From assembly GCA_037892935.1 (NCBI GenBank), contig JAYXKI010000008.1:1612001-1676000 (forward strand): a stretch of 64,000 nt of DNA. The letters run 5' to 3'. Shown here piece by piece: positions 8,993 to 62,797 of the stretch. Every line of letters begins with the position of its first letter. The first letter of the stretch is position 1. The notes below the pieces were generated by a model, which had not been told where the DNA came from, did no database searches, and was given only the letters and a program-made list of their open reading frames with translations. The position numbers and the translations under genes are program-made. The stretch comes from Phlebopus portentosus. Lineage: Eukaryota > Basidiomycota > Agaricomycetes > Boletales > Boletinellaceae.

Positions 8993-9313
8993 TGTAGACT
9001 ATCAGACTCTCCTAGATAGGGACAAAGGTGGCGGCGGCAGCATTTGACCACAGGGAGGTGATATCAAAGGTGTCAAGAGGAAAAAGGGGAAGTCCTACCA
9101 GATCTACAGACTACCTACAGACTTTCAGAAGCGATGAAGAGTAAGTCTGAAGCTTGGGAACGTACGGAGTCGTTACGACCAGTTCCGCAGTGTTCCAACT
9201 GGTTTTGCTCGAATGAGTGGACTTAGCAAGAACGCCATAGTCCAGATGGCACGTGCACCGTTCTTTGATCGGCCATCAAGATGGGAGAATCACGGTATCA
9301 AGTTTGCACGTGT

Positions 9314-10932
9314 TGAAACTCCTGTGGACGTTCTGATGCCGGACAGGGAGTGTATAGTTCGAGGGGCTGCCCTAGAATACCTTCAAGTGGTCAGCAGAGA
9401 GTTACACCCGAGCTAAGGGCACGAAGAAATGGAGGGAAATAGGGATATACAATGGAAGGGCTTGAGGGATGTGAGGGAAGCGCTCGAGGAAGAATTCCGA
9501 GGGTGAACTTCTTCCGAGATCGATGGTGGCAGTGCAAAGGCTAAATTGACTCTCTGGCTCAGCTGCGAGCTCTAGACTAAAGCCGACTAACCCAAGGCAC
9601 AAGAACTAAATTAACTAAGCTACGCTAGTTAAACTACCAACCCGAACGTGACTAATTGACTGTGCTAACACACTGGTAAGCGACTGCAGCCGATCTCACT
9701 CGTAGTCTAAAGTGTCGGAACGCGGCGTAACGATTCGAAATGCGATTCGATGGACGAAGGACAATTGCTGAGTGTGTCGAAATGTGATGCGAGGGATGGA
9801 GGTGCGAAATGATGACGGAAGGGGACTGAGAGAATCTAAGGATATGTGTGGGACGATGAAACCGACCGTTTCAAATCGAAATGATGCGGAATAGCACCGG
9901 GCTGGTCTTGAGGAAGCAGAGAGTGGAAAGTCAAGAGGAAAGGGGTAATATGGTGTCCTTTCCCGATGACAATGGAGAGGAGAAGGTGTTGCGAGACCAA
10001 ATGCGAGCGGCACGCAGAGTAACTGGGTTATGAGTGAAACCGGGCGAAACGGATCGAAACACGTGAGGGGGTCTTGTTTCGGGTGAGAGGAGATAGAGAA
10101 GCCTTTATACGATGACGGCGAACTATACAAACGCACGAACGGCTCTACTGCAAAGAGAGATCACTGATCGACTGTACAGAACACGAAATGTCGTATATTA
10201 GACTATAGAGATGAGAGAGTCCACTACGAACAAGTAGACTAGAGGTTGAGAGGCTTAGAGACGATGTGAGAACTGCAAGCTAAGCTCCCACTAAGCTCCG
10301 ACTAAGCTCCCCTTCTACTACGAGAGTCATGCTATATTTATACTAAACGTCCAAGGCTGAGCCTCCCAGCGGTCAGAGAACCTATGTCATAAAGAAAAGG
10401 GAACGCATATCGCTATCTACAAAGGAGAGGAGCGCATATGAATGGTTTAAGGGACACATAGGTCAAAAGGAACAATACTAAGCATGTCTGGAACGAGAGC
10501 ATAATGGATTAAAGGGGACGCATATAGAAAGGTCAGAATACGTGCAAAACCTTCAGAACCGGGTCTCTTTGAGCGGAACGAAGCGGAACTCGGGGAAACG
10601 ACTCGGAAGGGCTCTGGATAGCCTGACAAAGTAAGTCTGCAATGTTTAACAAAGGAGAGGGACTGAGGACGAGGTTGCAGGGTCAAATCTCTTTGTCTGG
10701 AACGCGGATCCAAGGTCCGGAGACTTGTGATCGATGCGTGCAAACTCGATGCTGTGATTCTCCTGTCTTGATGGCCGATCAAAGAACGGTGCACATGCCA
10801 TCTGGACTATGGCGTTCTTGCTAAGTCTACTCGTTCGAGCGAAACCAGTCGAAACCGAGCGAAACCAGTCGGAACACCGCGGAACTGGTCGTAATGACTC
10901 CGTACGTTCCCAAGCTTCAGACTTACTCTTCA
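9314..10932 (-). repeat. 3' LTR of element L
   Basis: 1619 bp with TG..CA ends, lying at the left because the element is on the minus strand. The inner side is followed by the conserved stretch complementary to ACCCGGGAGA, the short purine run next to the 3' LTR. Confidence 0.9.
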
Positions 10933-10952
10933 TCTCCCGGGTTCATGAAATA

Positions 10953-10970
10953 GTGACCATCCGTGGTCAC
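10953..10970. promoter_or_regulatory. Conserved 18-bp palindrome next to the 3' LTR (element L)
   Basis: On the element's sense strand this reads GTGACCACGGATGGTCAC, a 7-bp inverted repeat around CGGA. In R the arms are GTGACCG/CGGTCAC. Pairing is preserved here although both arms changed by a CpG transition. It lies 20 bp from the LTR and 91 bp upstream of the antisense gene's ATG at 11061. Confidence 0.65.
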
Positions 10971-11060
10971 TCCCATCTCAATCTGACGCATGGGAGTTTC
11001 GAAGCATAACGCGTTGCGTCCAAATTTTCTTCTGCTGTCATCTCTTTTTCATTCTCCAAC

Positions 11061-13789: not shown

Positions 13790-14537
13790 TTAATCGGAAT
13801 TTTGGGACTCATCGTCAGGGAATTTCTCTGGCAAATCTTCTATTTCGGGTATGTCATCGTCTTCATCTGATCCAATGAGCTTGGTCACCGGAACAGTCAA
13901 ATGTGAATGCGGGAAGTACAGAACCAGGCAAAACGCTGCTATTTGGAGTTTCGAAACCGCTCCATCGAGTTCGGCGATGATATACGAACCGCCTTGGGTG
14001 CGTTGAACTACCACGTAGGGGCCTAAATAGCGGGGTTTTGTTTTACAATTGAGTTCCATCTTGATACGTGTGTTTCGCAAGAGTACGAGGCTTCCTGGCT
14101 GAAAGTCGTAGTCCTTGATTCTATGCTTCTCCACCTCGGCGAACTGCTTTGCGTATGCATGCCTTGCATTCATGACGAGTTTCGCAAAGCGATCCAACTC
14201 TTCTGGACATTTCTGGAGTTGTTTCGCACGTATTACGATGAGTTCCGACATCGTAACCGGCGAATCGAGTGGCGGTGCCAGGTATGTTGCTTCTGCGAGG
14301 TCGAAAGGCAAAACTGCTTCGACTCCATGGGCCATGTAATACGGGGACATTCCTGTTGCTCTGTTGATCGTGATTCTTTCTGCCCAAAATACCGAGTCAG
14401 CGTGATCACTCCAACGCTTGTCATTACCGTCTGCAGCTTTAATCAAGGCTTCCTGTACGTCGAAATGTCTGCGTTCGACTAATCCATTTGCATGTGAGTT
14501 GTATGACGAAATCCGAATGTGGTTGATGTGATACCGC

Positions 14538-15879
14538 TGTAAGAAGCATCGACACGCTAGGTCCGAGATCGCACACGTGACACGTGTTCTGCGGTGATCA
14601 GCATCGTAACAGCGGAACTCAGTGCAGATCGATTTGATTCGAAGTGGAATGGACTACTGTAGCCTCTCGCACTCGACCGCTGCGTAGGAAGAACCTTTGG
14701 ACGCTCGAGCCACCCAGTCGAAAACTTACAAAGGCTGACTTAGCTAGCTCGTCTTACTAAACCCAGGCACGAAAGGTAAATTGAAGGATCCGCAATCGGC
14801 CCCCGACACCTCCCAAGTTTCGACCCGACGCGATGCACTCCGGCTTTTCCCCTTTTGAGTCCCATATGCGTTCATATTTTGTTTTGTTCCTTATGATTCT
14901 TATGCTCATTATTCCGTGTGCGCTCACATTTCGTATTATGCTCTATGGTCATTATCTCGCCACCTTCCAGATATGCTCACCTCGTACCTTGTTCCCGTGC
15001 GTTCCCTTATGATTTTCACTTCCGATTTCCTTTCGTTATGCTCCCTGACGCTCCGATGGCTCAGGTTCGGACCAAGTTATAAATAGGCGAGCAACTTGTA
15101 GTAGGAGCCCAGTTTTTAGCCCGGAGAGTCTTAGCAGAAAACAGTTTGGCTCGGGCTAGAACCCACTTCAGCTACGGTCGAGACCAATTCGACTTTTCCT
15201 GTACTCTCCTCGACTCTATCTCTCAAAAATACACGATAGTTCTGTCTCATACGCCTCGAGTCTCCTGCTCTGCAGTCGTACCCGAGCCCAGTGTGATCAG
15301 TTCAACCCGTGTTCAAAACAGAGACCCTCATCTCTCCTCCCTACGCCTCTACGCAAGGTCTCACTTGAGTCCCTTGCGTATTGCTTCGTTCCGCGTCGTA
15401 TCGCTCCGTTTTGTTTCGTAACCCACCGAAACCCGTCGTAACTCATCGTAACCCGTTATATCGTGTCGGATCCTCGAAAGGATCACCTTCGTATCGTCAG
15501 CGCTTAGGGGAAGTCCTTCTCTAAGCTTCGTCTCATCGTCTTCCGCCTCCAGGGTTCGAATCCATCGAGGGATTACCTGTGAGGACATCGATTACCTTCG
15601 CACCGCCACCGCCGATGCCCCTTGCTTCGACTTCTCCCGCCTTGCTTCTTCGCCTATCTCCTTTAATCCAACCCCCCCCCTCGCATACATCTAGCAGCCT
15701 TCAATCCCATTTCTCCTCCATCCCTTCCGGAACTGCTCTGGAACCCAGATCGACGCATCAGCGCTTCTCTAGTTTTCCCCCCAAAGTCACCCTTCTCTTT
15801 CCCACTCGTTTTAATCTTACCGAACAGCCCCCAAGAACTGTGACACTCCTCAGCTATCAGACAGTTCCTAGGAGTTTCA
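14538..15879 (+). repeat. 5' LTR of element B
   Basis: 1342 bp, TGTAAGAAGC at the start and GAGTTTCA at the end. The U3 part upstream of the TATA box is dense in ATG triplets. Downstream of it only one ATG is seen (15614), and that ATG is absent from the family B solo LTR at 31116. Confidence 0.93.
15078..15085 (+). promoter_or_regulatory. TATA box of element B 5' LTR
   Basis: TATAAATA, repeated at 23881-23888 in the 3' LTR and at 31656-31663 in the solo LTR. Family A has the same octamer. Position within the LTR suits a polymerase II promoter with a U3 of about 540 bp. Confidence 0.7.
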
Positions 15880-15881
15880 AG

Positions 15882-15901
15882 TGGAGCCCCCGGCGAGGGG
15901 G
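15882..15901 (+). other. Putative tRNA primer binding site of element B
   Basis: Two bases after the LTR the sequence reads TGGAGCCCCCGGCG. The TGG start is complementary to a tRNA CCA end. The matching tRNA could not be named by eye. Family A has a near-identical site, so both families probably share one primer. Confidence 0.65.
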
Positions 15902-18456
15902 GAAATTCACTGTTCGTCCAAAACGAGTAACCAAACTCCAGGTAGTACTCGGACTACCCGAAGCCAATCAGCCCGTATCCCCGTAGTTCACCAAGCCTTA
16001 CCCCAAGTCACACCTCGGACACCTAGGCAGAGGGCAAGCGCTAGAAGCACCACAGCATCGTTGCTAAGTTCTTCAGTAATTCAACCTTCACCTCTAACCG
16101 AGTCCAGTACCCTACCATCGTTCGAGCCGTCGGCCGAATCGTCTCCTTTTAGTTTCCAAGAAACCGATCTACCTACCAAATTCTCTGAGCAAGAATCCTC
16201 GTCGCCTGAGGATATCACTGTTCGACTCGATTACCCAGACCCCGCTAGGCTCAGACAGCCTCAAACCTCCAATCAAGCGATCCAAGTCGATCTGCTTGCG
16301 CAACAGTCGCAACCAAGCGGATTAACTCTCGCTCACCACCTCCAAGGACTGGGAAGTAACCTGCAGATCCTTAACCAACTTCAGACCAATTATCAGCAGT
16401 TGCAGCATATATCGAACCAGATGGCTGCAGTTAGACCACCTCTTCGAGGTGACAAGAGAGCACCAGTATTCGACGGTTCCGATCCGAAGGAACTGTTCCG
16501 CTTCTTCGACGACGTGGATGCGATCACAATAGATTCCAACTGGGATGCGTCGACTACCATCAGACGTGGGTACCTGTACTATGCGAAGACTGACGTTGCA
16601 GAAGTATGGGAGACCCTACCCGAAGTTTCTGCCGCCCCTGCGAGCGTCGGAGATTTCAAAACGGCTGTCAAGAAGCTTTATCCAAGTTTGGCAGACGGCA
16701 AGAGATACTCTAGGGGCGAATTGGAGCAGTTCATCGCCGAATGGGCCGAGAAAGGTATTCACACCAGAGATGAATTCGGCACTTATCATCGCAAGTTCCT
16801 ACGCAGAGCCAGGTATCTAGTTGCCAGCAACAAACTTACCAAGAACGACTCGAAATTCGCGTTTCTTCGAGGCATTTCGGGCCAGACTAGGAAGGATATC
16901 CTGCAAAGGCTCGAAATCAAGGACCCGGACCACGAGAGGGGCGACCCCTACGACATCGAGAAAGTAGCAAACGCAGCTATGTACATTCTTTCGGGATCCG
17001 CAGTCGATCAGATCAGATCCGACCCAATGAGCGGCGGAACGAGCGCAACGGTGGGCGCGTCGTCGGGAGGACATGGAATGACCGTCAAGAAGGAAGAAAC
17101 GGACTTGAGTAAAGTTTGGGAAACGCTGAAGGGTTTTCAGGTAACACTGGAATCGCTCACTAGAGGCCAGGGCCCTCGAATCGCAACAGGTCCGCAACCG
17201 GCCCCATTGGCTCGCACGCCCGGATGTGCATTCTGCAGCGATCCCGGCCACTTTATAAGGTCGTGCCCAAAGGTACTCGAGTATATCCAGGCCGGAAAGT
17301 GTCTACATGACTCGAACGGACGAGTAGTCATGCCAAACGGAGCCTTCGTATCAAGTAGGGTTTCGGGCCGGAACCTGATGGAGCGAATTGACAACTTGCT
17401 AAAGCCGAACCCGTCACATCCAGTCAACATCATCGAAGTCACCGAGCACCCGGAAACCCCGGCCGAGCCGATAGCATCAGCTATGCTTCAGGAAATCGGC
17501 AAGGATCAGACAGAAGAGACCGATTACGAAGTGGAACATTTAGAAATCTTGCTCAACGAGGCAAAGAAGAAAGCGGCGACTGGTAAAAGGCAGAAGTTCG
17601 ATGGAGTAGTCATTCCGACTAAGGTGGGACCGCCGGGAAGAGGGGCTTCGAAGGCACAGCAGTCGCCACCCCCTATTCCTAAGTCCCCGGCAGTTTCACG
17701 TTCGTCACCGCAGCGGGATGATATTAGAAAACCCTCGAACCCCCAACCCCAATACCGCTACATAGTCCCCGTTGAAGATTCTAACGCTGTCTCTAACGTG
17801 CTCACTCGGATGCTCGACATGAGCATTACGCTTAGCCAAAGGGAACTGTTATCGATCGCCCCCGAACTACGAAAGCAACTAAAGGAACTCACTACCGCAA
17901 AGAGATATAACGCTGCTGATGTGAATCTCGTCGAATCGCCGAGTTACGCCACGCAACCGTGCGGAACCACATCGCAACAACCTGAGGACTCGATTCTGTC
18001 CATCGGAACGTCGGGAGTGACCACGGAAGCAACTCTCCCCCTTCGTACGATTACAGCCGTAGTGGAGGACACGATGGAAGTGGAGTGCGTACTCGATCAA
18101 GGCGCAGCAGTGTGTCTGATTAGGGAAGACGTTTGGGAAAAACTTCAAGTGCCCCTATCACCAGACCAGAGCACGACCATCGAGATGGCGGACACAGCGA
18201 AGTCGGCCACCGTAGGATTAATCCCGAATGCCAAGTTTACGATAGCTGGGATTGATCTTTCCCTGCAAGTGCATGTCGTTCGTCAGGCACCGTTCCAGGC
18301 GCTACTCGGATGACCCTTCTTCGCAGTAACCGAATGCGAAACCAAGGATTATACCTTGGGAGACCAGCATATAACGCTATCAGACCCCAACGACAGAAAT
18401 CGACATAGTAAGGTCGCGACTGGAATTCGGAACGTGTTGCGCAACGTTGCGCAACA

Positions 18457-18463
18457 GGGTTTT
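18457..18463 (+). promoter_or_regulatory. Candidate -1 frameshift site between gag and pol (element B)
   Basis: G GGT TTT in the Gag frame, followed by the pol frame that is open without a stop from here through 21114. The identical heptamer occupies the same place in all three family A elements. It is preceded by two TTGCGCAA palindromes at 18439-18456. Confidence 0.6.
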
Positions 18464-21400
18464 CAGCAGATGTCGAGGAACTGATACTAAGACGTCAGCG
18501 AGACGTAGGCGATTATTCGTGTTCAAGCCTCAACAATACGTTTTCTATCTATTCTATTGATGTTTCCGACACTTTCACCTCACTATTTAGTAACCAGCTT
18601 CGGAAGCTGGTGAAAGACCCAATGCGTTTCGCTACTGACTATTCAAATCGACCTTATAGATCATGTATTCTAGAGAACCCGGACGATGACGACCCGGCGG
18701 TACTCATGTACAAACGCGTCGCTCAGAAAGTATGGCCCGTCCCCGGGGTACTACCAGAAGAATTTCGGATCGTCCGAAGGAGGCATCCGAACCCGCTCGA
18801 AGGACTGCCCGAAATACCAAAGAAACTGAAACCGTTTACGCCCATAGGCAGACTAACAAAGGAGCGGTTTGAAGCCCTCAGGATTGACGAGAATCAGTTC
18901 TTATGGCCCGAAGAAAGGCTGCTAGTTGCTAACCTACTTATGCTGCAGGAAGGAGCACTAGCGTGGACGGAAGCGGAACGGGGTAGTTTCGATGCGCAAT
19001 ACTTCGATCCGATTCGCATCCCAACGGTACCGCATGTACCGTGGGTACACAAGAACATACCTATTCCTCCAGGTATTCTCGAGCGTACTATCAACCTGAT
19101 TCGCGAGAAAATCAAGAATGGAGCCATTGAACCGTCTAACTCCTCGTACCGATCACGATGGTTTTGCCTAGTCAAGAAAGATGGAGTCTCCCTTCGATTT
19201 ATACTCGACCTGCAAGACATGAATGGTGTTTCCGTCCGAGACTCAGCCGTTCCGCCAAATATAGAAACCATTGCGGAGCATTGCGGCGGACGAAGTTGTT
19301 ATTCGAGCCTCGATTTCTATGTGGCTTTTGACCAGCGAGTTCTAGATGAACGCTCTCGAGATCTCACGACATTTCAGACTCCCTTGGGAACGTTCAGAAT
19401 GACGGTTCTCCCGATGGGATACACGAATTCCCTTCAGATTATGCACAATGACATCACTTTCATCCTACAAGACGAGATTCCGCACTGTACCGATCTGTAT
19501 GCAGACGATTCGCCCAGATTAGGTCCCAAAACGCGCTACGAACTCCCGGATGGCTCTTACGAAACCCTGCCAGAGAATCCAGGGATTAGGCGATTTATTT
19601 ACGAGCATATATGCGACGTAAATCAAATTTTGCAGCGAGTCAAGGCAGTGGGAGGGACGTACTCAGGAAAGAAAATGGAGATCGGCGTTGAGTCAATCGT
19701 ATTTCTCAGACACAAACTGACATATTATGGACGAGAGCCAGACGAATCGAAAGTCCAGAAGGTCAGTGACTGGCCGCCATGCCGATCGGTAACCGAAGTC
19801 AAAGGATTCCTCGGAACAGTGGGAGTCCTGCGAATTTTCATTAAGGATTTCACCAAGATAGCACGCCCCCTCAATCGACTCACTTGGAAGAACAACATTT
19901 TCGATTGGACAGACGAAGAACAGGAATCAATGGACGAGTTGAAGGAAGCGGTCATTAGGTGCCCAGCTCTATGTGCAATAGACTATCAATCGGAACTCAA
20001 AGTCATACTTGCGGTGGATTCATCGATTATCGGAGTAGGATGGTATTTGGGTCAAGAACACGTAGATGGACGAAGAAGGATTAATCGCTTCGGTTCCATA
20101 AACTGGAATGCCACGCAAGCAACATACTCCCAACCGAAAATCGAACTTTACGGACTATTTCATACGTTACACGCCATGCGACTATATCTCATCGGAGTGC
20201 GCAAGCTTGTCGTAGAAATGGACGCAGCATACATCAAAGGCATGATTAACAACCCGGACTTACAACCAAACGCTACGATCAACCGCTGGATCGCCGGGAT
20301 ACTTCTATTCGACTTCGAGATTCGTCACATCCCGGCGGCGGACTTCAAATGCACCAACGGACTTTCTCGACGACCCCCGGCACCCGAAGATCCACCTCCG
20401 GACGAAGGATATGAAGAGTGGATAGACGACACGTATGGATTCTACATTGAAAACCCGGTTACGACGTATTGCGCAGACTTACGTGCGTGCAACCAAGCGA
20501 AACGACTCCCATTGAGCCCTGGAAATGCGCGAGCAACTCTCGGATCAGTAGGATACCTCGAGAGATCGAACAGGAAACGTTGGGAGGGAAACGGCGACTC
20601 TGACTTCCCGAAGATGACTGACATCGCGTTGACCTTGTTTCCCAGTTCCGAGAAAGCTAACCCGAAAGACGCTCGCTTGGATGACGTCAAGAGCTTCTTG
20701 ATTGGCCAGAAGCGACCGGATCAGTTAGACGATCGTGGCTATGCAACACTGATCAGGTACGCGGCAAATTTTTTCGCTAGAGATGGACGTTTGTGGAAGA
20801 AAGTGCGGAACGGACGACACCAGGTCGTAATCGAACCGGAACGCAGATGGAACCTCGTAAAGCAAGCGCATGATGATCTAGGCCACAAGGGAGTATACTC
20901 TGTTCGAATTCGACTCCTGGAACGATTTTGGTGGCCTACCCTCGGTCCAGACGTCAAATACTACGTGCGCACCTGTCATGAGTGCCAAGTTCGCCAGACG
21001 AAGAACATTCTAATTCCCCCAGTCGTACCAACAATACCATCAATTTTCCAGCGCATACACATCGACACCAAGGTAATGCCAAAGTCTGGAGGATACCGGT
21101 ACATCGTACAAGCCTGATGCGCTTTATCTGGTTGCCCCAAATTTCGACTCTTGCGCGAAGAAACCGGCAAAGCGATAGCCCAGTTCATTTTCCAAGACCT
21201 CCTTTGCCGATACGGCGCTTGTCCCGAGCTCGTAACAGATAATGGGAAACCGTTCATCGCAGCACTCGATTACCTCAAGGATCGATATCACATCAATCAC
21301 ATATGCATCTCAGCATACAACTCTCGCGCTAATGGAATTGTAGAAAGACGCCACTACGATGTGCAGGAAGCCCTGATAAAGGCTGTAGACGGTAATGACA

Positions 21401-48866: not shown

Positions 48867-49007
48867 TATTTCATGAACCCGGGAGATGAAGAGTAAGTCT
48901 GAAGCTTGGGAACATACGGAGTCGTTACGACCAGTTCCGCGGTGTTCCGACTGGTTTCGCTCGGTTTCGACTGGTTTCGCTCGAACGAGTGAACTTAGCA
49001 AGAACGC

Positions 49008-51097: not shown

Positions 51098-53149
51098 ATG
51101 GCGTACCAACCGCCCTCGCGTGGGGACAAACGTGCCCCAGCGTTTGACGGCTCAGAACCAAAGGAACTCCCTAGGTTCTTCGAAGACGTTGCAGAAATCG
51201 CAAGACAGGCCGCGTGGAACGATAGAGATCACGTCCGAAAGTTCTTGTACTATGCGAAGACCGACGTCGCGGAACTTTGGGAGACTACCGACGAGATTAA
51301 TGACCCGAACCCTGATGTGGAGACGGTGAAGAGAGAGATTATAGCTCTATACCCGAGTCTCACGGCAGGGAAACGCTACTCCAAGGGAGAACTGGAGCAT
51401 TTGGTCGTAGAACGGGCGAAGAAAGGGATCAAGAACCGAGAAGACCTAGGCGAATATCATCGAGAATTCGTCAGGCGCTCTAAGTATCTTATAACGAACG
51501 GAAAGATCTTGGAGTCCCAAGCTGACGAGATGTTCCTGATGGGAATTACAGGAGACCTTAGAGAGGCGCTCATTCGTCGTATCGAGATCAAGCTACCAGA
51601 CCACGATTCATCTACGCCTTACAAGATTAAAGACGTTCTCGAGCATTCGAATTTCGTGCTGGGAGGAAAGATTGTGGGGAGTTTCGGCAGTAACTTTCCA
51701 CCCCCAGCTACCGGAGAAGCTTCGACAAGTATCGTAAAGAAGGAAGAAGTGGATTTGGCCAAGGTAATGGATACGTTGAAGAGTTTCCAGGTTACGCTCG
51801 ATGCCCTGAGCAAAGGGAACGTTCCGCATCGACCAGGGACGGAACGCAGCGAAACTCCGCGAAACCCAGTTTGCAACTTCTGCGGCGAAGCAGGACACTA
51901 TATTCGATCGTGTACGAAGGTTCTCGAGTACATCCAAGCCGGAAAGTGCGTTAGGAGCCCGGATGGAAGGATTGTGTTGCCGAACGGCGGTCTCATTACA
52001 AGGTCGCTACCGGGGAACAATCTCAAAGAACGAATCGATAGCTTTCACGCTAAAGCTCCGGCAACACACACAGTAGGAATGGTCGAGTCGGTCACGCCCG
52101 CATATAGCCATCAAGCTGGTCCAGCGTACGCATATAGTCACGACGAAGAAGATCAGGACGAGCAGGAAAACTACGACATCGAACGTTTGGAGATTTTGAT
52201 TAACGAGGCAAAGAAGAAGGCAGCTGGTGGACGAAGAACGAAGCCCGATGGCGTAGAGATCCCTAGAGTTCAGCCTCATAAGAAGGCGCAGGTGAAACCG
52301 CAGCCCGCGCCACTGAGTGGCGCGCGGCCCTCGACAAGGTCACTCCAGTCACCGCAGCAGGACGACATTACCAGGAAATCACAACCCCAGTATAAATACG
52401 TCGTACCAATAGAAGACTCGAGCGCAGTCTCCAACGTTCTGACTCGTACTCTCGATACCCCTATCACCATCAGCCAACGAGAACTCCTCTCAATCGCCCC
52501 GGACGTTAGGAAACAGATGAAGGAGCTGACGACGGCGAAGAGATACAACGCGGCTGAAGTCAAATATGGTGAGGTCGTGGATGATTCACTTACGTTACAA
52601 GTTGGGCGTTTCGCGTCGGAACAAGTCGAAACAGGCGAAACGCTTTCGACGGAAGAAATACTGGCGCTCAGTGGACAAGGCGTTGCCGCAGAGGCATCCA
52701 TGCCCCTCAGGACCGTTAGCGCGTTGATTGAAGACACTCTGGAAGTCGAATGCGTGCTCGACCAGGGAGCCGTAGTGTGTCTGCTCCGCGAAGACGTGTG
52801 GGAGAAGCTTCAGATACCCCTATCCCCTGACAAAGGAATGATCCTCGAGACAGCAGACGCAGCTAGGTCATCTACCATTGGCATGATCTCTAATGCGAAG
52901 TTCACGATAGCCGGGATCGACGTTTCGCTCCAAGTGCAAGTCGTTCCGAACGCTCCCTTCCAGGCTTTGTTGGGGAGACCGTTTTTCGCTATTACGGAGT
53001 GCGAAACGAAGGATTACACGTCAGGTGACCAACATATCACCTTAACGGACCCGAACGATCGCAGAAAGCAAAGCAAAGTGGCCACCGGAATTCGAACGAT
53101 CGCGCGAGGACCACTTCCAAAGGGTTTTCCGCAAGCGTCGAGGAACTGA
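50756..53149 (+). CDS. Gag-protease polyprotein of element R
   Basis: Forms the virus-like particle core, binds RNA and carries the maturation protease. The frame is open well upstream of 50756 but has no ATG before 51098 (codon 115, context GCAATGG). The start given is the beginning of the conserved open part, not a proven start. Order: Ser/Pro-rich leader, RGDKRAP block and Gag helical region, CCHC knuckle CNFCGEAGHYIRSC (51872-51913), acidic linker, aspartic protease with LDQGA where most families have DTG or DSG, and ALLGRPFF near its end. The frame ends in TGA at 53147-53149, 8 codons after the frameshift heptamer. No damage is seen. Confidence 0.88.
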   Translation: MPPTRRPRIVNRNIRSAAENAEHSETPLRQSVSAIPSNTDSLDHSPSTIADSELPNLSSVPASTPGSPNRPASPPTNYQLPTGTQQILASNAAIIARLSANANVLQQLTNRQTAMAYQPPSRGDKRAPAFDGSEPKELPRFFEDVAEIARQAAWNDRDHVRKFLYYAKTDVAELWETTDEINDPNPDVETVKREIIALYPSLTAGKRYSKGELEHLVVERAKKGIKNREDLGEYHREFVRRSKYLITNGKILESQADEMFLMGITGDLREALIRRIEIKLPDHDSSTPYKIKDVLEHSNFVLGGKIVGSFGSNFPPPATGEASTSIVKKEEVDLAKVMDTLKSFQVTLDALSKGNVPHRPGTERSETPRNPVCNFCGEAGHYIRSCTKVLEYIQAGKCVRSPDGRIVLPNGGLITRSLPGNNLKERIDSFHAKAPATHTVGMVESVTPAYSHQAGPAYAYSHDEEDQDEQENYDIERLEILINEAKKKAAGGRRTKPDGVEIPRVQPHKKAQVKPQPAPLSGARPSTRSLQSPQQDDITRKSQPQYKYVVPIEDSSAVSNVLTRTLDTPITISQRELLSIAPDVRKQMKELTTAKRYNAAEVKYGEVVDDSLTLQVGRFASEQVETGETLSTEEILALSGQGVAAEASMPLRTVSALIEDTLEVECVLDQGAVVCLLREDVWEKLQIPLSPDKGMILETADAARSSTIGMISNAKFTIAGIDVSLQVQVVPNAPFQALLGRPFFAITECETKDYTSGDQHITLTDPNDRRKQSKVATGIRTIARGPLPKGFPQASRN
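53122..53128 (+). promoter_or_regulatory. Candidate -1 frameshift heptamer G GGT TTT (element R)
   Basis: In the Gag frame GGT is codon 790 and TTT codon 791, giving the X XXY YYZ arrangement of -1 slippery sites. The pol frame is open from this point. The heptamer is conserved in L, O and B although flanking sequence differs between families. Confidence 0.6.
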
Positions 53150-56100
53150 TTGAGAGAAATCGGCGAGACGAGAATGGTAGTAACCAATTGCCGGTTCAGG
53201 TATTTTCTTATGATTTCGAATTTATCTCACACATGATCCCATCTCTTTTCAACCAACGATTGCCTTATTTATTAAACAAAAATTGCTATACTACTGACAA
53301 AGAAGAACGGTCATATCGTTCATGTGTTTTAGAAACCCCAGAAGAAGAAGACGCGGCAGTAATGGCTTACAAACGAGTAGCGCAGAAAGTCAGGCCGATC
53401 CCGGGAGTCCTTCCAGAAGAGTACAGGATCGTTCGAAGGCAGCATCCGGATCCGTTGAGAGGGATGCCCGAGATGCCAGTTGTACCGAAGCCGTTCGAAC
53501 CCACGGGTCGTGTGACCGCCGAAAGGATGGAAGCGCTGAAGATCGACGAGAATACCTTTCTGTGGCCGGCGGAGAGGTTGTTAGTGAAGAATCTAATTAT
53601 GTTGCAGGGAGAAGCGTTAGCATGGACCGAATCCGAACGCGGAACTCTCGATCTGACGTATTTCGACCCGATACGCATTCCCACGATACCGCATATACCG
53701 TGGCAGCACAAGAGCATTCCAATTCCCCCGGGAATTCATGACAAGGCCCTCGAGCTTATTCGAGAGAAGATTCGCAACGGGGTTATTGAACCGTCGAATT
53801 CGTCGTATCGATCTAGATGGTTTTGCTTGGTAAAGAAAGACAAGGAAACGTTACGATCCATTATCGACTTGCAGGATCTTAATGTGGTTACGGTCAAGGA
53901 TTCGGCAGTACCACCGAACGTCGAAACGATCGCGGAGAGCAGTGGAGGACGAGCTTGTTACACGGAGTTGGATTTATTCGTTGCATTCGACCAAAGGAAG
54001 CTTGACAAACACTCACGAGATCTTACTACGTTCCAGACACCCTTGGGAACATTTCGAATGACGGTTCTACCAATGGGATACACCAATTCATTGCAGATTA
54101 TGCATAACGACGTGGCCTTTATCCTTCAGGACGAGATTCCGCACGTTACGAACCCTTTCGCAGACGATGCGCCCGGTTTAGGTCCGAAATCGCGATACGA
54201 GTTACCAGACGGTTCGTACGAGACCATACCGGGAAACTCCGAGATTCGTCGTTTCGTGTATGAGCATATATGCGATGTGAACAGGATTTTGCAGCGAATG
54301 AAGGCGGTAGGTGGAACGTTTTCAGGGAAGAAGTTGGTGCCGTGTGTGGAGTCAGCGGTATTCGTTGGACACAAGTTAACGTACCAGGGACGCGAGCCAG
54401 ACGATTTGAAAGTGCAGAAGATACGAGATTGGCCGCCATGTAGAACGCTGACGGAAGTCAGAGGATTTCTGGGAACGGTAGGAGTCCTTCGAATTTTCGT
54501 CAAGGATTATTCGAAACTCGCTCGCCCGTTGTACCGCATGACAAGGAAGAACCAGATTTTCGCGTGGACAGACGAAGAACAGAACGCAATGGACGAACTA
54601 AAGCAAGCCGTTATTATTTGCCCGGCGCTGTGCGCAATCGACTACGCGTCAGACAACGAAGTAATATTGGCGGTAGACTCGTCTATTATTGGAGTTGGTT
54701 GGTATTTAGGACAAGAGCACTCGGATGGAAGGCGAAGGATCAATCGTTTCGGCTCTATTAACTGGAATCAGACCCAGGCATCGTATTCACAGCCGAAAAT
54801 TGAGTTATACGGCTTATTTCGAGCATTGCACGCGATGCGACTGTATCTCATCGGAGTCCGGAATCTAGTAGTCGAAATGGACGCAGCATACATCAAGGGG
54901 ATGATCAACAATCCCGACCTGCAGCCCAATGCGACCATTAACAGATGGATCGCAGGTATCCTTCTCTTCAGTTTCAAGCTCAGACACATCCCAGCAGCCG
55001 ATTTCCGATGTACCGATGGATTATCCAGACGAAGAGCAGCCGAAGAAGACCCCCCTCCTGATGAAACGTACGAAGACTGGGTAGACGAAACGTACGGATT
55101 TGCGATAGAAGAGCCGGTTTCGACATACCAAGTAGCGCAACAGAGCGGAACACCTAGCGAAACAGCGACAGAGAACCTATTTCCTTCTACGGAATCCGCG
55201 AGAAGGAAGGATAGCCGCTTAGATGACGTCACGAAGCTAATCACGCATCTCACACGCCCAGACAATCTTAGCGATAGTGGCTATGCGAAGCTAATCAGGT
55301 ACGCAGCTGACTTCTTCGTGAAGGGAGGCCGTCTGTGGAGAAAGGCGCGGAACGGCCGGCACCAAGTCGTAATAGAAGCGAAACGCAGATGGGACCTAGT
55401 TAAGCAAGCTCATGACGATCTAGGACACAAAGGAATTTTCTGCACCCGAATGCGACTGCTGGAGAGATTTTGGTGGCCGTCCTTAGGACAGGACGTGAAG
55501 TATTTCGTGCGCACCTGTCATGAGTGCCAGATACGCCAGACGAAGAATATTCTTATCCCACCGAACGTACCGGAGGTAGCCCCTCTGTTTCAACGCATCC
55601 ATATTGACTCGAAGGTCATGCCGAAATCGAGTGGATTCCGGTATATCGTGCATGCGCGTTGTTCGTTAACCGCGTATCCCGAATTTAGACTTCTTCGTGA
55701 AGAAACTGGTAAGACCGTAGGCCAGTTTATCTTCCAGAACCTTTTGTGTCGATATGGAGCATGCCCCGAACTCGTTACCGATAACGGCACACCATTCGTT
55801 GCCGCGCTAGATTACTTGAAGACGCGGTATCACATCAACCACATTCGGATTTCGTCATACAACTCACGCGCAAATGGATTAGTCGAACGCAGACATTTCG
55901 ACGTACAGGAAGCCTTGATTAAAGCTGCAGACGGTAATGACAAGCGTTGGAGTGATCACGCTGACTCGGTATTTTGGGCAGAAAGAATCACGATCAACAG
56001 AGCAACAGGAATGTCCCCGTATTACATGGCCCATGGAGTCGAAGCAGTTTTGCCTTTCGACCTCGCAGAAGCAACATACCTGGCACCACCGCTCGATTCG

Positions 56101-56571
56101 CCAGTTACGACGTCGGAACTCATCGTAATACGTGCGAAACAACTCCAGAAACGTCCAGAAGAGTTGGATCGCGTTGCGAAACTCGTCATGAATGCAAGGC
56201 ATGCATACGCGAAGCAGTTCACCGAGGTGGAGAAGCATAGAATCAAGGACTACGACTTTCAGCCAGGAAGCCTCGTACTCTTGCGAAACACGCGTATCAA
56301 GATGGAACTCAATCGTAAAACGAAACCCCGCTATTTAGGCCCCTACGTGGTAGTTCGACGCACTCAAGGCGGTTCGTATATCGTCGCCGAACTTGATGGA
56401 GCGGTTTCGAAACTCCGAATAGCAGCGTTTCGCCTGCTTCCGTACTTCCCGCGATCGCATTTGACCGTTCCGGTGACCAAGCTCATTGGATCGGACGAAG
56501 ATGACGACATACCCGAAATAGAAGATTCGCCAGAGAAATTCCCTGACGATGAGTCCCAAAATTCCGATTAA
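53122..56571 (+). CDS. Pol polyprotein of element R: RT, RNase H, integrase
   Basis: Expressed by -1 frameshifting from gag. An ATG-only start would be 53233. Domains: linker with a conserved PEEEDAAVMAYKRVAQ block; reverse transcriptase (ELDLFVAFDQ, VLPMGYTNSLQ, active site FADD at 54157-54168); RNase H-like domain (VILAVDSSIIGVGWYLG, ending GLSRR); HHCC finger; integrase core with IDSK, TDNG and VERR acidic residues; GPY/F module (RYLGPYVVV near 56331); acidic tail. There is no chromodomain, so target choice must come from another part of the integrase or a partner. Frame is intact over its full length. Confidence 0.93.
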   Translation, partial: GFSASVEELIERNRRDENGSNQLPVQVFSYDFEFISHMIPSLFNQRLPYLLNKNCYTTDKEERSYRSCVLETPEEEDAAVMAYKRVAQKVRPIPGVLPEEYRIVRRQHPDPLRGMPEMPVVPKPFEPTGRVTAERMEALKIDENTFLWPAERLLVKNLIMLQGEALAWTESERGTLDLTYFDPIRIPTIPHIPWQHKSIPIPPGIHDKALELIREKIRNGVIEPSNSSYRSRWFCLVKKDKETLRSIIDLQDLNVVTVKDSAVPPNVETIAESSGGRACYTELDLFVAFDQRKLDKHSRDLTTFQTPLGTFRMTVLPMGYTNSLQIMHNDVAFILQDEIPHVTNPFADDAPGLGPKSRYELPDGSYETIPGNSEIRRFVYEHICDVNRILQRMKAVGGTFSGKKLVPCVESAVFVGHKLTYQGREPDDLKVQKIRDWPPCRTLTEVRGFLGTVGVLRIFVKDYSKLARPLYRMTRKNQIFAWTDEEQNAMDELKQAVIICPALCAIDYASDNEVILAVDSSIIGVGWYLGQEHSDGRRRINRFGSINWNQTQASYSQPKIELYGLFRALHAMRLYLIGVRNLVVEMDAAYIKGMINNPDLQPNATINRWIAGILLFSFKLRHIPAADFRCTDGLSRRRAAEEDPPPDETYEDWVDETYGFAIEEPVSTYQVAQQSGTPSETATENLFPSTESARRKDSRLDDVTKLITHLTRPDNLSDSGYAKLIRYAADFFVKGGRLWRKARNGRHQVVIEAKRRWDLVKQAHDDLGHKGIFCTRMRLLERFWWPSLGQDVKYFVRTCHECQIRQTKNILIPPNVPEVAPLFQRIHIDSKVMPKSSGFRYIVHARCSLTAYPEFRLLREETGKTVGQFIFQNLLCRYGACPELVTDNGTPFVAALDYLKTRYHINHIRISSYNSRANGLVERRHFDVQEALIKAADGNDKRWSDHADSVFWAERITINRATGMSPYYMAHGVEAVLPFDLAEATYLAPPLDSPVTTSELIVIRAKQLQKRPEELDRVAKLVMNARHAYAKQFTEVEKHRIKDYDFQPGSLVLLRNTRIKMELNRKTKPRYLGPYVVVRRTQGGSYIVAELDGAVSKLRIAAFRLLPYFPRSHLTVPVTKLIGSDEDDDIPEIEDSPEKFPDDESQNSD

Positions 56572-57018
56572 ATCATTCATTCCCTTCATATATGCTCCTG
56601 ACTTAATTCCGATTCTCTCTCTCTCCTCTGATCAATTCTAATCTTCCAATTCTCCTTCTATAGTTTCGTCTCTGCTAGCGTGATCCACTATAGGATCTGA
56701 CGCGTGTACTTTTACTTAATACGCAGTTCCGCACGGTTTCGCCGTTCAAAGCAGCGGAACGACGGCGAAACGCCTCAATTCACTTCGTATCAGTTTCCTT
56801 TCATCCTATTTCTTGAATTCTTTGATCTATTCTTCTAGCCCTCACTCAGTCTCGCTCGATCGCACGAAAATTCACAAAAACCGAAACAAAATCGTATAAA
56901 TTAACTATAAAAAAACAACTATGTACAGTACAAGTTATTTTTCTTTTTCTTTTGTCCTTTTCTTTTTCTATTTTACAAAAGTCCGACCAGGACATAGAGC
57001 ATACGCGATGATTATACT
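56572..57018. other. Spacer between pol and antisense gene (element R)
   Basis: About 447 bp between two convergent genes. It has a cluster of GCGGAAC and GCGAAAC motifs at 56724-56775 and a T-rich tract near 56936-56985 that could serve the end of the pol transcript. No gene is seen. Confidence 0.6.
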
Positions 57019-59328
57019 CTATTCCCGAGCCCTACCTTTCCCCTTCGATTGACGAACCCTCTCCACTTCCCCTCTATCTTCCTCTTCCTCGTCCTCACCT
57101 TCCCCCGTCTTCACCCCAGCCAACTCGAGCAGCAGACGACGATCCGCGTGCGCCTGCGCTACGAGGACGCTGAATTCGTTCAGCATCCGGGACAGGACCT
57201 TGTCCCGGTGATCCATCCGCGCCAGCACGAACTGCAGCTCGGATTCCCCGACCTCCCGCTGCAGAGCTTCATGCTCGACGCGACCACCCACCGATCTGGC
57301 CGCCAGAGCCGTGACTTTCCGGCGTTTTGCTTCCCGATCGCGCGCCTCCCGAGCTGCCTTACGCTTTGCGGCTACAGCCCTGCCCTTCGTGGCTAGACTA
57401 CAGCCCTTTGCCTGCTTCAAGCACGGAGCGCAGGTCCTCTGCGGAAGACCCACGCAATCACGGCCACGCTTCTGGCACTGGTCGCACGGAACCCGATGAC
57501 GAACGCGCCCATCGCCCAATCGTTCGTCACCATCGTCGTCATCGTCGTCGTCGTCGTCGCCGTCATTATCGTTGTCGTCACCACCAGAACCACCACCATT
57601 AGCCGGAATCCTAGAAGGACCAGCCTCAGGTTGAGAAGACGCTCGTCGTACCGGAGAAACGCGTCTCGCTCGCGTTTCGACAGTTTCGCGCGGAACAGCA
57701 GCAGTACCGCTATTGTTGTTGTTGTTGCTGTTGTTGTTGTTGCTCGCGGTATTGAGAGCCTGAATCTCTTCAAGGCTTGCGTCCGCCTCAAACGGCTCAT
57801 TCGCCTCCATTCCCACATCACCGATATCCATTCCGCCGTCGCCTGGACTCATGACAACGGAGTCTTCTCCCCGATGACCAGGAGGAGGACTCTCAGGACT
57901 TTCCTGAATCGCAGGAGTCTCCTCGTCCGAGTCCACCACTTGCCGAACACCACGAACGAGGCGAGTCCCTGCATCCAGTCGTCGTCGCATGTTGGCCTCG
58001 ATTTCGGCAGCCATCCGGGAGATTTCGGCGCGTTGAGCAGCGCGTTCTTCTTCTTCTCGTCTTTCACTCTCGCGAAGCTCAATCTCGAGCATTGTAGGTT
58101 CGAGTGAGGTTAAGGGTGTAGAACGGCTAGCCCCTTCCAAACGTTCCGCTCCGGTTTCGAGCGTTTCGACCGGTTCCGCGACCTCTCCATCCTCAATCGT
58201 TTCGCCAGTTTCGACCTGAAGAGGAGCGGAATCAACTTCCATTGGACTATCGACGTCCTGAGGCAGCATTTGATGTTGCTGCTGTTGTTGTTGTTGCGGA
58301 GGAAATTGTTCAGGCAACATTGGTTGTTGCTGCTGTTGTTGTTGCGGTTGAGGAAGAGGTCGGGAAGGTTCAGACAGCACTTGTTGGGATCGTTGTTGTT
58401 GCTGTGGTTGTTGTTGTTGTTGCGTTTCGGATTCCTGAGCACGAACGAGTTGATAGAGCCGACGACGAAGGATGGAATAGCCGTAGTATTCCCAGAGGAG
58501 CCGGACCGTTCTCAATTTCACCCTGTCGATGCGAAGGATGTGCCCTGCACGAAGGTGTCGTTGCTCGATATCCTCCCAATATTCGAACGCTTGCTGTAGG
58601 AAGGATTAGATGGAGATGATAGACAAGAAGAAGTACCTACGTGACTCCGGACAGCTTCGTCTCGCGTGTAGTCCGTGTTGCCGGTGAACCTCGCCGTTTG
58701 TTGGAACTTGGAGCTCTCCATTCTCACGTTCTCGAGAGCCTTTTCGATGTCAGGGCGCGGTTTCGGGAACATAGGAGGGAACGATTCGCCCAAGAAGAAC
58801 CCACGAGTCGAATCGAACGAGGCAGGATGGAATGGAACCCTGCGTCTGCGGAAGAAAGCTCGTCGTTTGGTCTCCATCCTGGCGTAAAATTCCCGTCGAT
58901 CGTAGTACAGCGTCCGTAGGAGAGCGTCCGTGTCGCAGTAGTTGGAGTACGCCGTCTCCGACCAGACTTCTTTCGTTCCTTTGGGACGGACTTGCTCCAA
59001 TGCTTCCTTCCGTGCCTGTCGAATTTCGTTAACAAAAATTCTTGATTAGAGTGCGCGGTTTACGCACCGTGGTTGCCTTCCACCCATCCATCAAAGATTC
59101 CATCACCGGATTCGTCAACCACCGAACCGTCATCGAACCTGTAGGCGCGATCCATTCGACCGGTTTTGTCTTATCCGGCAGAATTACCGTCGCGACGCCA
59201 TGGTCTAGTTCATCCATTGCCGACCTGGCCAAGGCGACGTCTGCCTCGAATTTCGCGACCGCCGCCTTCCAGTCGTCATCGGAGTTGATGGGTCCCAAGA
59301 GCGCGACGATTTCTTCGGAAGTGAACAT
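57019..59328 (-). CDS. Antisense accessory gene of element R: polyQ, acidic, Zn2Cys6-like protein
   Basis: Exons 59068-59328, 58641-59015 and 57019-58593, phase 0 throughout, encode 736 residues. Introns are 52 and 47 bp with GTGCGT and GTAGGT donors and CAG acceptors. Residues 1-250 form a conserved helical region of unknown fold. Then come glutamine runs (about 270-320), a Pro/Glu/Ser-rich stretch, an Asn run, an Asp tract (about 550-570), and cysteines at about 582-610 spaced C-x2-C-x6-C-x7-C-x2-C-x6-C. This matches the fungal binuclear zinc cluster pattern. A basic segment and a helical tail follow. It converges on pol. A DNA-binding regulator of the element or its host is inferred, not shown. 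Intact in R, broken in L and O. Confidence 0.85.
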
Positions 59329-59418
59329 GTTGAAGAATGAAGAAGAGATGACAGCGGAAGAAAATTTGGACGCGACGCGTTATGCTTCGAAACTCCCACG
59401 CGTCGGATTGAGATGGGA

Positions 59419-59436
59419 GTGACCGCGGACGGTCAC
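59419..59436. promoter_or_regulatory. Conserved 18-bp palindrome next to the 3' LTR (element R)
   Basis: GTGACCGCGGACGGTCAC: 7-bp arms around CGGA, containing CCG and CGG triplets as an inverted pair. It lies 91 bp upstream of the antisense ATG (59328) and 20 bp before the 3' LTR. It could act as an operator for the antisense gene or as an RNA hairpin in the sense transcript. Confidence 0.7.
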
Positions 59437-59456
59437 TATTTCATGAACCCGGGAGA

Positions 59457-61085
59457 TGAAGAGTAAGTCTGAAGCTTGGGAACGTACGGAGTCGTTACGA
59501 CCAGTTCCGCGGTGTTCCGACTGGTTTCGCTCGGTTTCGACTGGTTTCGCTCGAACGAGTGAACTTAGCAAGAACGCCATAGTCCAGATGGCACGTGCAC
59601 CGTTCTTTGATCGGCCATCAAGACGGGAGAATCACGGCATCGAGTTTGCACGCGTTGATCACAAGTCTCCGGGCCTCGGATCCGCATTCCAGACAAAGAG
59701 ATTTGACCCTGCAACCTCGTCCTCAGTCCCTCTCCTTTGTTAAACATCGCAGACTTACTTTGTCAGGCTAGCCAGAGCCCTTCCGAGTCGTTTCCCCGAG
59801 TTCCGCTTCGTTCCGCTCAAAGAGACCCGGTTCCGAAGGTTCCGCACATATTCTGACCTTTCTATATGCGTCCCCTTTAATCCATTATGCTCTCGTTCCA
59901 GACATGCTTAGTATTGTTTCTTTTGACCTATATGTCCCTTAAACCATTCCTATGCGCTCCTCTCCTTTGTAGATAGCGATATGCGTTCCCTTTTCTTTAT
60001 GACGTAGGTTCTCTGACCGCTGGGAGGCTCAGTCTTGGACGTTTAGTATAAATATAGCACGACTCTCGTAGTAGAGGGACAGCTTAGTCGGAGCTGAGTG
60101 GGAGCTTAGCTTGCAGTTCTCACATCGTCTCAAAGCCTCTCGACCTCTAGTCTACTTGTTCGTAGTGGACTCTCTCGTCCCTATAGTCTAATATACGACA
60201 TTTCGTGTTCTGTACAGTCGATCGGTGGTCTCTCTTCGCAGTAGAGCCGTTCGTGCGTTCGTATAGTTCGCCGTCATCGTATAAAGGCTTCTCTATCTCC
60301 TCTCACCCGAAACAAGACCCCCTCACGTGTTTCGATCCGTTTCGCCCGGTTTCGCTCGTAACTCAGTTACTCCGCGTGCCGCTCGCATTTGGTCTCGCAA
60401 CACCTTCTCCTCTCCATTGTCGTCGGGAAAGGACACCATATCATCCCTTTCCTCTTGACTTTCCACTCCCCGCTTCCTCAAGACCAGCCCGGTGCTATTC
60501 CGCATCGTTTCGATCGGAAACGGTCGGTTTCCTCGTCCCACACATATCCTTCGATTCTCTCAGTCCCCTTCCGTCATCGTTGTGCACCTCCATTCCTCGC
60601 ATCACATTTCGACACACTCAGCAATTGTCCTTCGTCCATCGTATCGCGTTTCGAACCGTTACGCCGCGTTCCGACACTTAAGACTACGAGTGAGATCGAC
60701 TGCAGTCGCTTACCAGTGTGTTAGCACAGTTGATTAGTCACGTTCGGGTTGGTGGTTCGACTAGCGTAGCTTAGTTAGTTTAGTTCTTGTGCTTTGGGTT
60801 AGTCGGCTTTAGTCCAGAGCTCGCAGTTGAGCCGGAGAGTCGATTTAGCCTTTGCACCGCCACCGTCGATCTCGGGAGAAGCCTACCCTCGGAATTCCTC
60901 CTCGAGCGCTTCCCTCATATCCCCGGTTCCCTCCAAGCCCTTCCATTGTCTATCCCTATTTCCCTCCACTCCTTCGTGCCCTTAGCTCGGGTGTAATTCT
61001 CTGCTGACTGTTTAAAGGTATTCTTGGGGCAGCCCCTCGAACTATACACTCCCTGTCCGGCATCAGAACGTCCACAGGAGTTTCA
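59457..61085 (+). repeat. 3' LTR of element R
   Basis: 1629 bp, preceded by CCCGGGAGA as the short purine run for plus-strand priming. Nearly identical to the 5' LTR. Confidence 0.95.
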
Positions 61086-62797
61086 ACGCCATAGTCCAGA
61101 TGGCACGTGCACCGTTCTTTGATCGGCCATCAAGATGGGAGAATCACGGCATCGAGTTTGCATGCGTCGATCACAAGTCTCCGGACCTCGGATCCGCATT
61201 CCAGACAAAGAGATTTGACCCTGCAACCTCGTCCTCAGTCCCTCTCCTTTGTTAAACATCGCAGACTTACCTTGTCAGGCTAGCCAGAGCCCTTCCGAGT
61301 CGTTTCCCCGAGTTCCGCTTCGTTCCGCTCAAAGAGACCCGGTTCCGAAGGTTCCGCACATTTTCTGACCTTTCTATATGCGTCCCCTTTAATCCATTAT
61401 GCTCTCGTTCCAGACATGCTTAGTATTGTTTCTTTTGACCTATGTGTCCCTTAAACCATTCCTATGCGCTCCTCTCCTTTGTAGATAGCGATATGTGTTC
61501 CCTTTTCTTTATGACATAGGTTCTCTGACCGCTGGGAGGCTCAGTCTTGGACGTTTAGTATAAATATAGCACGGCTCTCGTAGTAGAGGGACAGCTTAGT
61601 CGGAGCTGAGTGGGAGCTTAGCTTACAGTTCTCACATCGTCTCAAAGCCTCTCGACCTCTAGTCTACTTGTTCGTAGTGGACTCTCTCGTCTCTATAGTC
61701 TAATATATGACATTTCGTGTTCTGTACAGTCGATCGGTGATCTCTCTTCGCAGTAGAGCCGTTCGTGCGTTCATATAGTTTGCCGTCATCGTATAAAGGC
61801 TTCTCTATCTCCTCTCACCCGAAACAAGACCCCCTCACGTGTTTCGATCCGTTTCGCCCGGTTTCGCTCGTAACTCAGTTACTCCGCGTGCCGCTCGCAT
61901 TTGGTCTCGCAACACCTTCTCCTCTCCATTGTCGTCGGGAAAGGACACCATATCACCCCTTTCCTCTTGACTTTCCACTCTCCGCTTCCTCAAGACCAGC
62001 CCGGTGCTATTCCGCATCGTTTCGATCGGAAACGGTCGGTTTCATCGTCCCACACATATCCTTCGATTCTCTCAGTCCCCTTCCATCATCGTTTCGCACC
62101 TCCATTCCTCGCATCACATTTCGACACACTCAGCAATTGTCCTTCGTCCATCGAATCGCGTTTCGAATCGTTACGCCGCGTTCCGACACTTAAGACTACG
62201 AGTGAGATCGACTACAGTCGCTTACCAGTGTGTTAGCACAGTCGATTAGTCACGTTCGGGTTGGTGGTTCGACTAGCGTAGCTTAGTTAGTTTAGTTCTT
62301 GTGCCTTGGGTTAGTCAGCTTTAGTCCAGAGCTCGCAGTTGAGCCGGAGAGTCGATTTAGCCTTTGCACCGCCACCGTCGATCTCGGGAGAAGCCTACCC
62401 TCGGAATTCCTCCTCGAGCGCTTCCCTCATATCCCCGGTTCTCTCCAAGCCCTTCTATTGTCTATCCCTATTTCCCTTCACTCCTTCGTGCCCTTAGCTC
62501 GGGTGTAATTCTCTGCTGACCATTTGAAGGTATCCTAGGGCAGCCCCTTGAACTATACACTCCCTGTCCGGCATCAGAACGTCCCCAGGAGTTTCAGCGG
62601 CAGCAGCAGCATGGGTGCTGTTCCTAGGCCGCCGAAGGTCCAGCAGCTGCTGAGCAGGCTGTATTATAAGTAATGGCGGTGAAGGCTGGTTTGCTGACAA
62701 TAGTACGTGGGGTGTCCTGGGTATGGCATAGGGGAATACAGCCCTTACAGGCCTGTGCCACTGGACCGGTACAGGTTAGTGCAGTGCACTACAATGG

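Follow-up and report, generated by a model that had tools for sequence, protein, structure and literature searches.

Four families of long terminal repeat retrotransposons of Phlebopus portentosus insert mostly at 4-bp targets centred on CG

A nest of retrotransposons on contig 8

The window analysed here, a stretch of 64,000 nucleotides from the boletalean fungus Phlebopus portentosus (contig JAYXKI010000008.1, C8:1612001-1676000, in a 38.4-Mb assembly of 23 contigs, GCA_037892935.1), is a nest of long terminal repeat (LTR) retrotransposons, in which we distinguish families A, B, C and D. A sequence-only reading of the window had claimed that insertions of three of these families duplicate 4 bp of target DNA with CpG at the centre. 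We followed the claim through the window and the rest of the assembly, and found that both the 4-bp length and the CG core hold over the genome and that the rule extends to the fourth family, D.

An LTR of family D (copy 2, 8993-62793, minus strand) lies between two copies of ATGG (8989-8992 and 62794-62797) and is interrupted by two family A insertions. The first is an A LTR on the plus strand (9135-35272) with GCGA on its left (9131-9134) and GCAA, a decayed GCGA, on its right (35273-35276). This LTR is broken by an A element on the minus strand (9314-33836), which is flanked by GTGT (9310-9313) and GCAT (33837-33840) and is itself host to B and C copies. A full-length B element of 10,146 bp (14538-24683, plus strand) sits between copies of CCGC (14534-14537 and 24684-24687), and an alignment of its two LTRs over 1342 positions has 15 differences, transitions without exception. 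A solo LTR of family C (24842-25834, minus strand, 993 bp) is bounded by GCGG (24838-24841 and 25835-25838), and a solo LTR of family B within an A LTR (31116-32457, plus strand) by CCGG (31112-31115 and 32458-32461). The second insertion into the D LTR is an A element on the plus strand (36916-62596) with GCGG on both sides (36912-36915 and 62597-62600). It hosts nested A copies, namely an A solo LTR within A coding DNA (42080-43707, minus strand) flanked by GCGC (42076-42079 and 43708-43711), and a full-length A element of 12,078 bp (49008-61085, plus strand) flanked by ACGC (49004-49007 and 61086-61089), the LTRs of which show 4 differences in 1629 positions. Outside this structure, D copy 1 (97-2131, minus strand) lies inside an A LTR between CTAT (93-96) and CCAT (2132-2135), and a minus-strand A LTR ending at 3158 has the one-sided flank GCGT (3159-3162).

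Every junction named in the sequence-only reading, including the one-sided GCGT, was present when read directly. The statement that all the listed duplications are NCGN stood for six of the eight pairs on both sides; the other two, GCGA/GCAA and GTGT/GCAT, are damaged. Unbroken copies of the same target in the DNA sampled showed what the damaged sites had been, in counts in which overlapping loci may score one place twice: the GCGA/GCAA site reads GCGA in 5 of 7 matches and GTGA in 2 of 7, the GTGT/GCAT site reads GCGT in 29 of 36 and GCAT in 7 of 36, and the site of D copy 1 reads CCGT in 23 matches, ACGT in 4 and CTGT in 3. The site of the B solo LTR at 31116-32457 reads CCGG in 31 of 33 unbroken matches and CTGG in 2 of 33. 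For D copy 2, a search for the empty site found none.

Families A and B encode a gag-protease protein with a DUF4100 domain and a protein with reverse transcriptase, RNase H and integrase in the order typical of Ty3/Gypsy elements (A open reading frame 53029-56571, B open reading frame 18412-21117). The reverse transcriptase model RVT_1 matched above the cut-off in A and scored 25.8 against a cut-off of 29.6 in B, followed by RT_RNaseH and Integrase_H2C2. In the full-length A element, the gag-protease frame (50567-53149, plus strand) has DUF4100 and an aspartyl protease above the cut-off and a zinc knuckle below it, and the integrase occupies the plus-strand segment 55336-56568 of the pol frame, with the H2C2 zinc domain, the D-D-E residues and a C-terminal domain. 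The LTRs of A, B and C begin with TG and end with CA and lie within target duplications; those of D also have TG...CA ends. Among the 120 matches listed of 639, the named relatives came from Leucocoprinus, Candolleomyces and Pleurotus, all Agaricales, which points to a mushroom-forming fungus as the most likely host, and a search of viral contigs for relatives of the A protein returned none. The full-length A element also has an open frame of 528 amino acids antisense to it (57019-58605, minus strand), between pol and the 3' LTR, the only match of which, to TFIIA, is sub-threshold.

A CG core in duplications across the genome

To place the junctions of the window in the genome, the assembly was searched for LTR-end patterns, which gave 188 A 5' ends (100 of them listed), 85 B 5' ends and 35 C 3' ends. 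Part of these ends, picked before their flanks were known, were sampled in twenty 10-kb loci of contig 1 and in smaller pieces elsewhere, to which the window and three search loci were added. Of 188 LTR ends scored, 33 were internal (at the primer site or polypurine tract) and 155 outer, and 146 outer ends remained after one false A match (6 mismatches) and repeated flanks had been removed, with flanks sharing the same 12 bases within one family and end counted once. Ends from the search loci L001, L002, L003, L005 and L008 were left out of the counts. Four of these loci repeat places that were sampled elsewhere, but in L005 there is a place that enters no other count, with the 3' flank CCAG.

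The centre of the flanking 4-mer was CG in 121 of the 146 distinct flanks (121/147 in the fuller tally that includes the L005 place), TG or CA in 21 and another dinucleotide in 4. By family the CG centre was found in 53/59 flanks of A, 51/64 of B and 17/23 of C. Counted per insertion, CG was present on at least one side in 75 of 87 A, B and C insertions, compared with about 6 expected (0.0657 x 87). One might suppose that CpG-rich host repeats supply CG at the junctions by chance, and the window is indeed CpG-rich (CG is 0.0657 of its dinucleotides, or 6.6%, with a CpG observed/expected ratio of 1.05), but the positional profile refutes this. In the same 146 flanks, CG makes up 2.1-5.5% at each of the offsets 4-15, counted from the element, far below its rate at offsets 2-3, and the binomial log10 P is -116, a value in which paired flanks of one insertion are not independent. 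The absence of CG at offsets 1-2 and 3-4 is largely forced by CG at 2-3. Thus the correction for background CpG that the sequence-only reading had called for leaves the CpG-centred 4-bp target common to A, B and C in place, and we regard chance as practically excluded.

We then compared the two sides of each insertion. Among 64 distinct insertions with both flanks, the 4-mers were identical in 48, and no insertion (0/64) had a match over 5 bp, which rules out a 5-bp duplication. The pairing rule takes the best-matching partner up to 27 kb away with at most 2 mismatches and so leans towards identity, and the B element at window position 14538 was paired manually. When pairs were made by distance only, 45/64 were identical, a figure that includes 3 duplicates; mispairing of nested copies accounts for some of the 19 pairs that differ.

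Could the CG come from the element, as terminal bases that it brings along or that are added when its ends are joined? Such an origin would place CG equally far from the element on either side, as is seen. The outer bases of the 4-mer, however, vary among insertions and yet agree on both sides in the 48 identical pairs, and the empty sites refute this origin outright, with unbroken paralogues carrying one copy of the 4-mer. In the DNA sampled, an unbroken paralogous target was found for 40 of the 64 insertions; at least one copy showed CG in 35 of the 40, and only TG, CA or TA was present in 5. Because the unbroken copies have CG in 35/40 cases, the CG belonged to the target before insertion and was then duplicated, and a supply of CG by the element is ruled out, its remaining probability being negligible.

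The target is also more than a bare CG. As controls for 140 CG half-sites we took 30,259 CG contexts of the window and of the 10-kb loci. When the sites are read outward, T occupies position 1 in 10% of used sites and in 34% of control CGs, and A occupies position 4 likewise in 10% against 34%, so that the half-site is roughly V-C-G-B, with further weak base preferences at offsets 6 to 8. The motif is symmetric about the duplication, as is typical of integrase complexes.

Elsewhere in the genome family D obeys this rule too, so that the three families of the sequence-only reading are actually four. From 113 matches to D we took 20 flanks that strand and spacing marked as outer 5' ends. All of the 20 were NCGN, and two share one flank, which leaves 19/19 distinct. 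Three further D copies with both flanks read CCGC/CCGC (L024), CTAT/CCAT (the copy 1 described above, unbroken CCGT) and ATGG/ATGG. In those D copies that were measured the LTR is 1.75 to 2.0 kb long, and many of the listed copies are paired about 12.8 kb apart. Family C has LTRs of 993 bp, and since its full copies of about 4.05 kb are too short for a normal pol, C is probably mobilised by the machinery of a relative. Two oppositely oriented C elements, L029 (C12:167100-171600) and L030 (C12:207600-212100), carry swapped duplications, CCGG/ACGT and ACGT/CCGG, which would point to recombination between the two elements that inverted about 40 kb.

Two other families of the same genome served as controls. 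A Copia family had CG at offsets 1-12 in 0/20 flanks, or in 0/19 targets when L147, which looks like an internal flank at the polypurine tract, is set aside; Copia flanks hold only 0.7% CG, so this control excludes a genome-wide junction artefact and is weak as a contrast. In family E, a Ty3 family with a chromodomain, CG was found in 0/6 independent flanks, with the centres TA, TG, TG, TC, CC and TC; the first three could be decayed CG, while the last three could not arise through CpG transitions. The CG rule is therefore probably not shared by every LTR element of this genome, the E sample being 6 flanks. When the 10-kb loci were searched for further LTR families, the result was A, B, C, D, an LTR-like repeat of 118 bp (L026) and a few single-match candidates.

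Several observations on the distribution of these repeats were made in passing. One Copia family (132 LTR starts, 100 of them listed) lies in tight clusters, about one per contig, including C6:270-323k, C12:1165-1203k, C8:928-979k, C16:382-403k and C9:1712-1736k, which are possibly centromeres; the nest of the window lies elsewhere on C8. One A and two B copies share a near-identical 5' flank at the left border of the 118-bp repeat (places L026:5679-5796 and 9496-9613, C6:93310, C6:1491305 and C1:3936126), which is either a repeated landing site or partly the outcome of segmental copying. B solo LTRs with identical flanks occur at C7:106444, C12:869767, C15:226112 and C16:104607, and equal integrase fragments of 339 amino acids lie 11-31 kb from them on the same four contigs, which suggests a large segmental duplication. 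At L012, positions 5956-7317 and 7552-8923 form an inverted repeat with 1.37-kb arms that are 88.7% alike; it belongs to another repeat family, with related pieces in L020, L021, L022 and L027.

CpG decay and the flanks without CG

CpG decay is the main source of the exceptions. For 126 of the 146 flanks (20 had too short an LTR sequence) we determined the share of CpG sites changed in the flank's own LTR. If the CpG of the duplication decays like those of its own LTR, 28.5 +/- 3.7 flanks without CG are expected, and 24/126 were observed. Flanks without CG numbered 0/23 where less than 2% of the LTR CpGs had changed, 4/15 at 2-5% and 13/27 above 40%, and the mean share of changed LTR CpGs was 51% for the TG/CA exceptions (22 flanks) compared with 17% for 102 CG flanks. 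Of the 12 insertions for which no known side has CG, 10 have at least a quarter of their LTR CpGs changed. The heavy decay of these LTRs and the fit of the expected number mostly rule out TG and CA as genuine alternative targets.

Compared with a reference copy, CpG sites of the LTRs are changed 5.5 times as frequently as the remaining sites (1866/8405 against 4380/107822, from 96 flanks with some LTRs counted from both ends), and 1724 of the 1866 altered sites have become TG, CA or TA. Because the LTR CpGs change so much more often, and mainly to these dinucleotides, the repeats that carry the LTRs are likely methylated. After insertion, both CG copies of a duplication would then mutate like other CpGs of the repeats, probably by deamination of 5-methylcytosine, and yield most of the TG and CA exceptions. 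Methylation of the repeats might also be taken to mean that the integration complex recognises methylated CpG, a possibility raised in the sequence-only reading, which would steer insertions into methylated repeats. That reading had also suggested that a CpG target would direct insertions into CpG-rich repeats, which might account for the nesting. The decay, however, follows insertion and is uninformative on the state of the target at the time, and the host DNA next to the insertions examined is CpG-intact in L023 (observed/expected 1.19 and 1.26) and depleted in L016 (0.43 and 0.76). We consider recognition of methylated CpG quite unlikely.

The integrase and its place among known systems

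Taken together, we propose that the integration complex of families A to D cuts NCGN with a 4-bp stagger and that the integrase most likely reads the CG itself, a reading to which we give a probability of about 0.82 on the evidence of these sequences. The complex would join one LTR end to each strand of the target, at points 4 bp apart, with CG as the central two base pairs. In a 4-bp intasome the central step would be kinked, so that pyrimidine-purine steps are favoured, and the lineage of these elements may have narrowed this preference to CG through base contacts, perhaps made by the C-terminal domain of the integrase. Since the CG stands in exact register with the two joining points, reading by the integrase is the simplest cause, and to this extent the claim of the sequence-only reading that the integrase recognises CpG is supported. 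An alternative is that a host CpG-binding protein, such as a CXXC or MBD protein or a maintenance methyltransferase, tethers a complex whose integrase is itself unspecific. Host factors are known to tether Ty1, Ty3 and lentiviruses; tethering gives a neighbourhood but not a register, and the confinement of CG to offsets 2-3 described above speaks against it. We regard tethering as very unlikely.

The zinc domain of the A integrase matched Integrase_H2C2 at 1.1e-17. This domain and the D-D-E residues align with the integrase of prototype foamy virus (PFV), and these residues, D91, D149 and E184, are invariant across 15 sequences. PFV integrase was also its best sequence match in the PDB (phmmer, 1.5e-15) and the top Foldseek hit of its structure model (E 4.9e-12, at a TM-score of 0.30). 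The C-terminal domain, which the translations show to be well conserved between A and B, matched SH3_Tf2-1 at E 0.041, below the cut-off, with strands predicted there in the weak model. No Chromo domain was matched in the A integrase at E 0.1, while that of the control family E (L014) matched PF00385 at 1.4e-12.

Several observations weigh against the proposed reading by the integrase. The Pfam rve core model gave no match to the A integrase, and the structure model is weak, with a mean pLDDT of 59 and the TM-score of 0.30 to PFV, too weak for claims at the level of residues. The position after the catalytic Asp-Asn-Gly holds T in family A, K in family B and A in a third family. This residue beside the second catalytic Asp, presumably the counterpart of the target contact in helix alpha-2 of PFV, differs between A and B and cannot explain a CG that both share, so another contact must read it, for which the C-terminal domain would be the first candidate. 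The Ty3 type was shown for A and B; D is known here from LTRs and flanks. Finally, two B insertions with little-decayed LTRs have no CG: at C9:691976 both flanks are ATGT, which may be a genuine TG target, and at C1:2070745 they are GGTT and CATC, which are unlike each other. They supply all four of the flanks without CG in the 2-5% class and are not explained by decay, so the CG rule is not absolute.

Most integrases are known for a weak local sequence preference only. Here, several families that nearly always obey one dinucleotide rule occur beside a Ty3 family, E, that does not, and the determinant could be sought by comparison. The rule would make target sites predictable genome-wide, and it would link the targeting of these elements with CpG methylation and decay, since a host that loses CpGs loses landing sites. 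A further-reaching possibility, that the intasome of a fungal Ty3 lineage both reads CpG and senses its methylation, so that host methylation and CpG decay decide where the elements land, seems to us unlikely. For annotation, a 4-bp NCGN duplication marks true element ends, and swapped duplications reveal recombination between copies.

Targeting of CG has precedents, which we compare here from excerpts of the published descriptions. The integrase of ZAM, a Gypsy-group element of Drosophila, has the target CGCGCg (PMC2527525), and ZAM duplications are 4 bp in 3/3 cases (PMC3276498). ZAM thus resembles families A to D in having a Ty3/Gypsy integrase, a palindromic target that contains CG and a 4-bp duplication. 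Unlike ZAM, as described in these excerpts with a 6-bp motif and a second binding site nearby, A to D have only the central CG nearly fixed, and a fixed CGCGCg was not found at their targets, where the bases outside the CG vary. Ginger1 DNA transposons, which have a Gypsy-type integrase with a GPY/F module, are described with duplications of CCGG (75%) or CCGT/ACGG (24%) (PMC2836005). They share the 4-bp NCGN form and the integrase type with A to D, but they have terminal inverted repeats and are reported from animals. The elements studied here are fungal, with direct LTRs and a reverse transcriptase in place of such inverted repeats, and also use GCGN, NCGC, ACGT and TCGN. Among the papers listed in searches of open-licence PubMed Central, as represented by titles and the openings of abstracts, we found no CG-only core in fungal LTR elements, and the excerpts of PMC9674265, PMC3411680 and PMC12810828 describe none. 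With ZAM and Ginger1 as precedents for CG-targeting, the near-obligatory CG-only core in fungal LTR elements would be the new part.

The 4-bp length has closer parallels. The sequence-only reading had contrasted it with about 5 bp as usual for Ty3-type elements, which needs qualifying, since the modal duplication of the Drosophila Gypsy group is 4 bp, within a palindromic motif that reaches beyond the duplication and is similar within clades (PMC3276498). Those elements resemble A to D in both respects, but the cores named in the excerpt are ATAT and TATA. PFV also makes 4-bp duplications and favours flexible pyrimidine-purine steps at their centre; it shares this preference, and the kink of the central step, with other 4-bp viruses, and the local preference of PFV and HIV-1 is largely independent of chromatin (PMC4422553, in excerpt). 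Families A to D share the 4-bp stagger, the symmetric motif and the pyrimidine-purine centre with the PFV and gammaretroviral intasomes, PFV being also the best PDB match of the A integrase. The retroviral preference, as described there, is statistical, whereas the CG of A to D is nearly obligatory. On our best reading, the CG rule would take to its extreme the preference of 4-bp intasomes for pyrimidine-purine steps, as a base-reading contact on a PFV-like scaffold would do.

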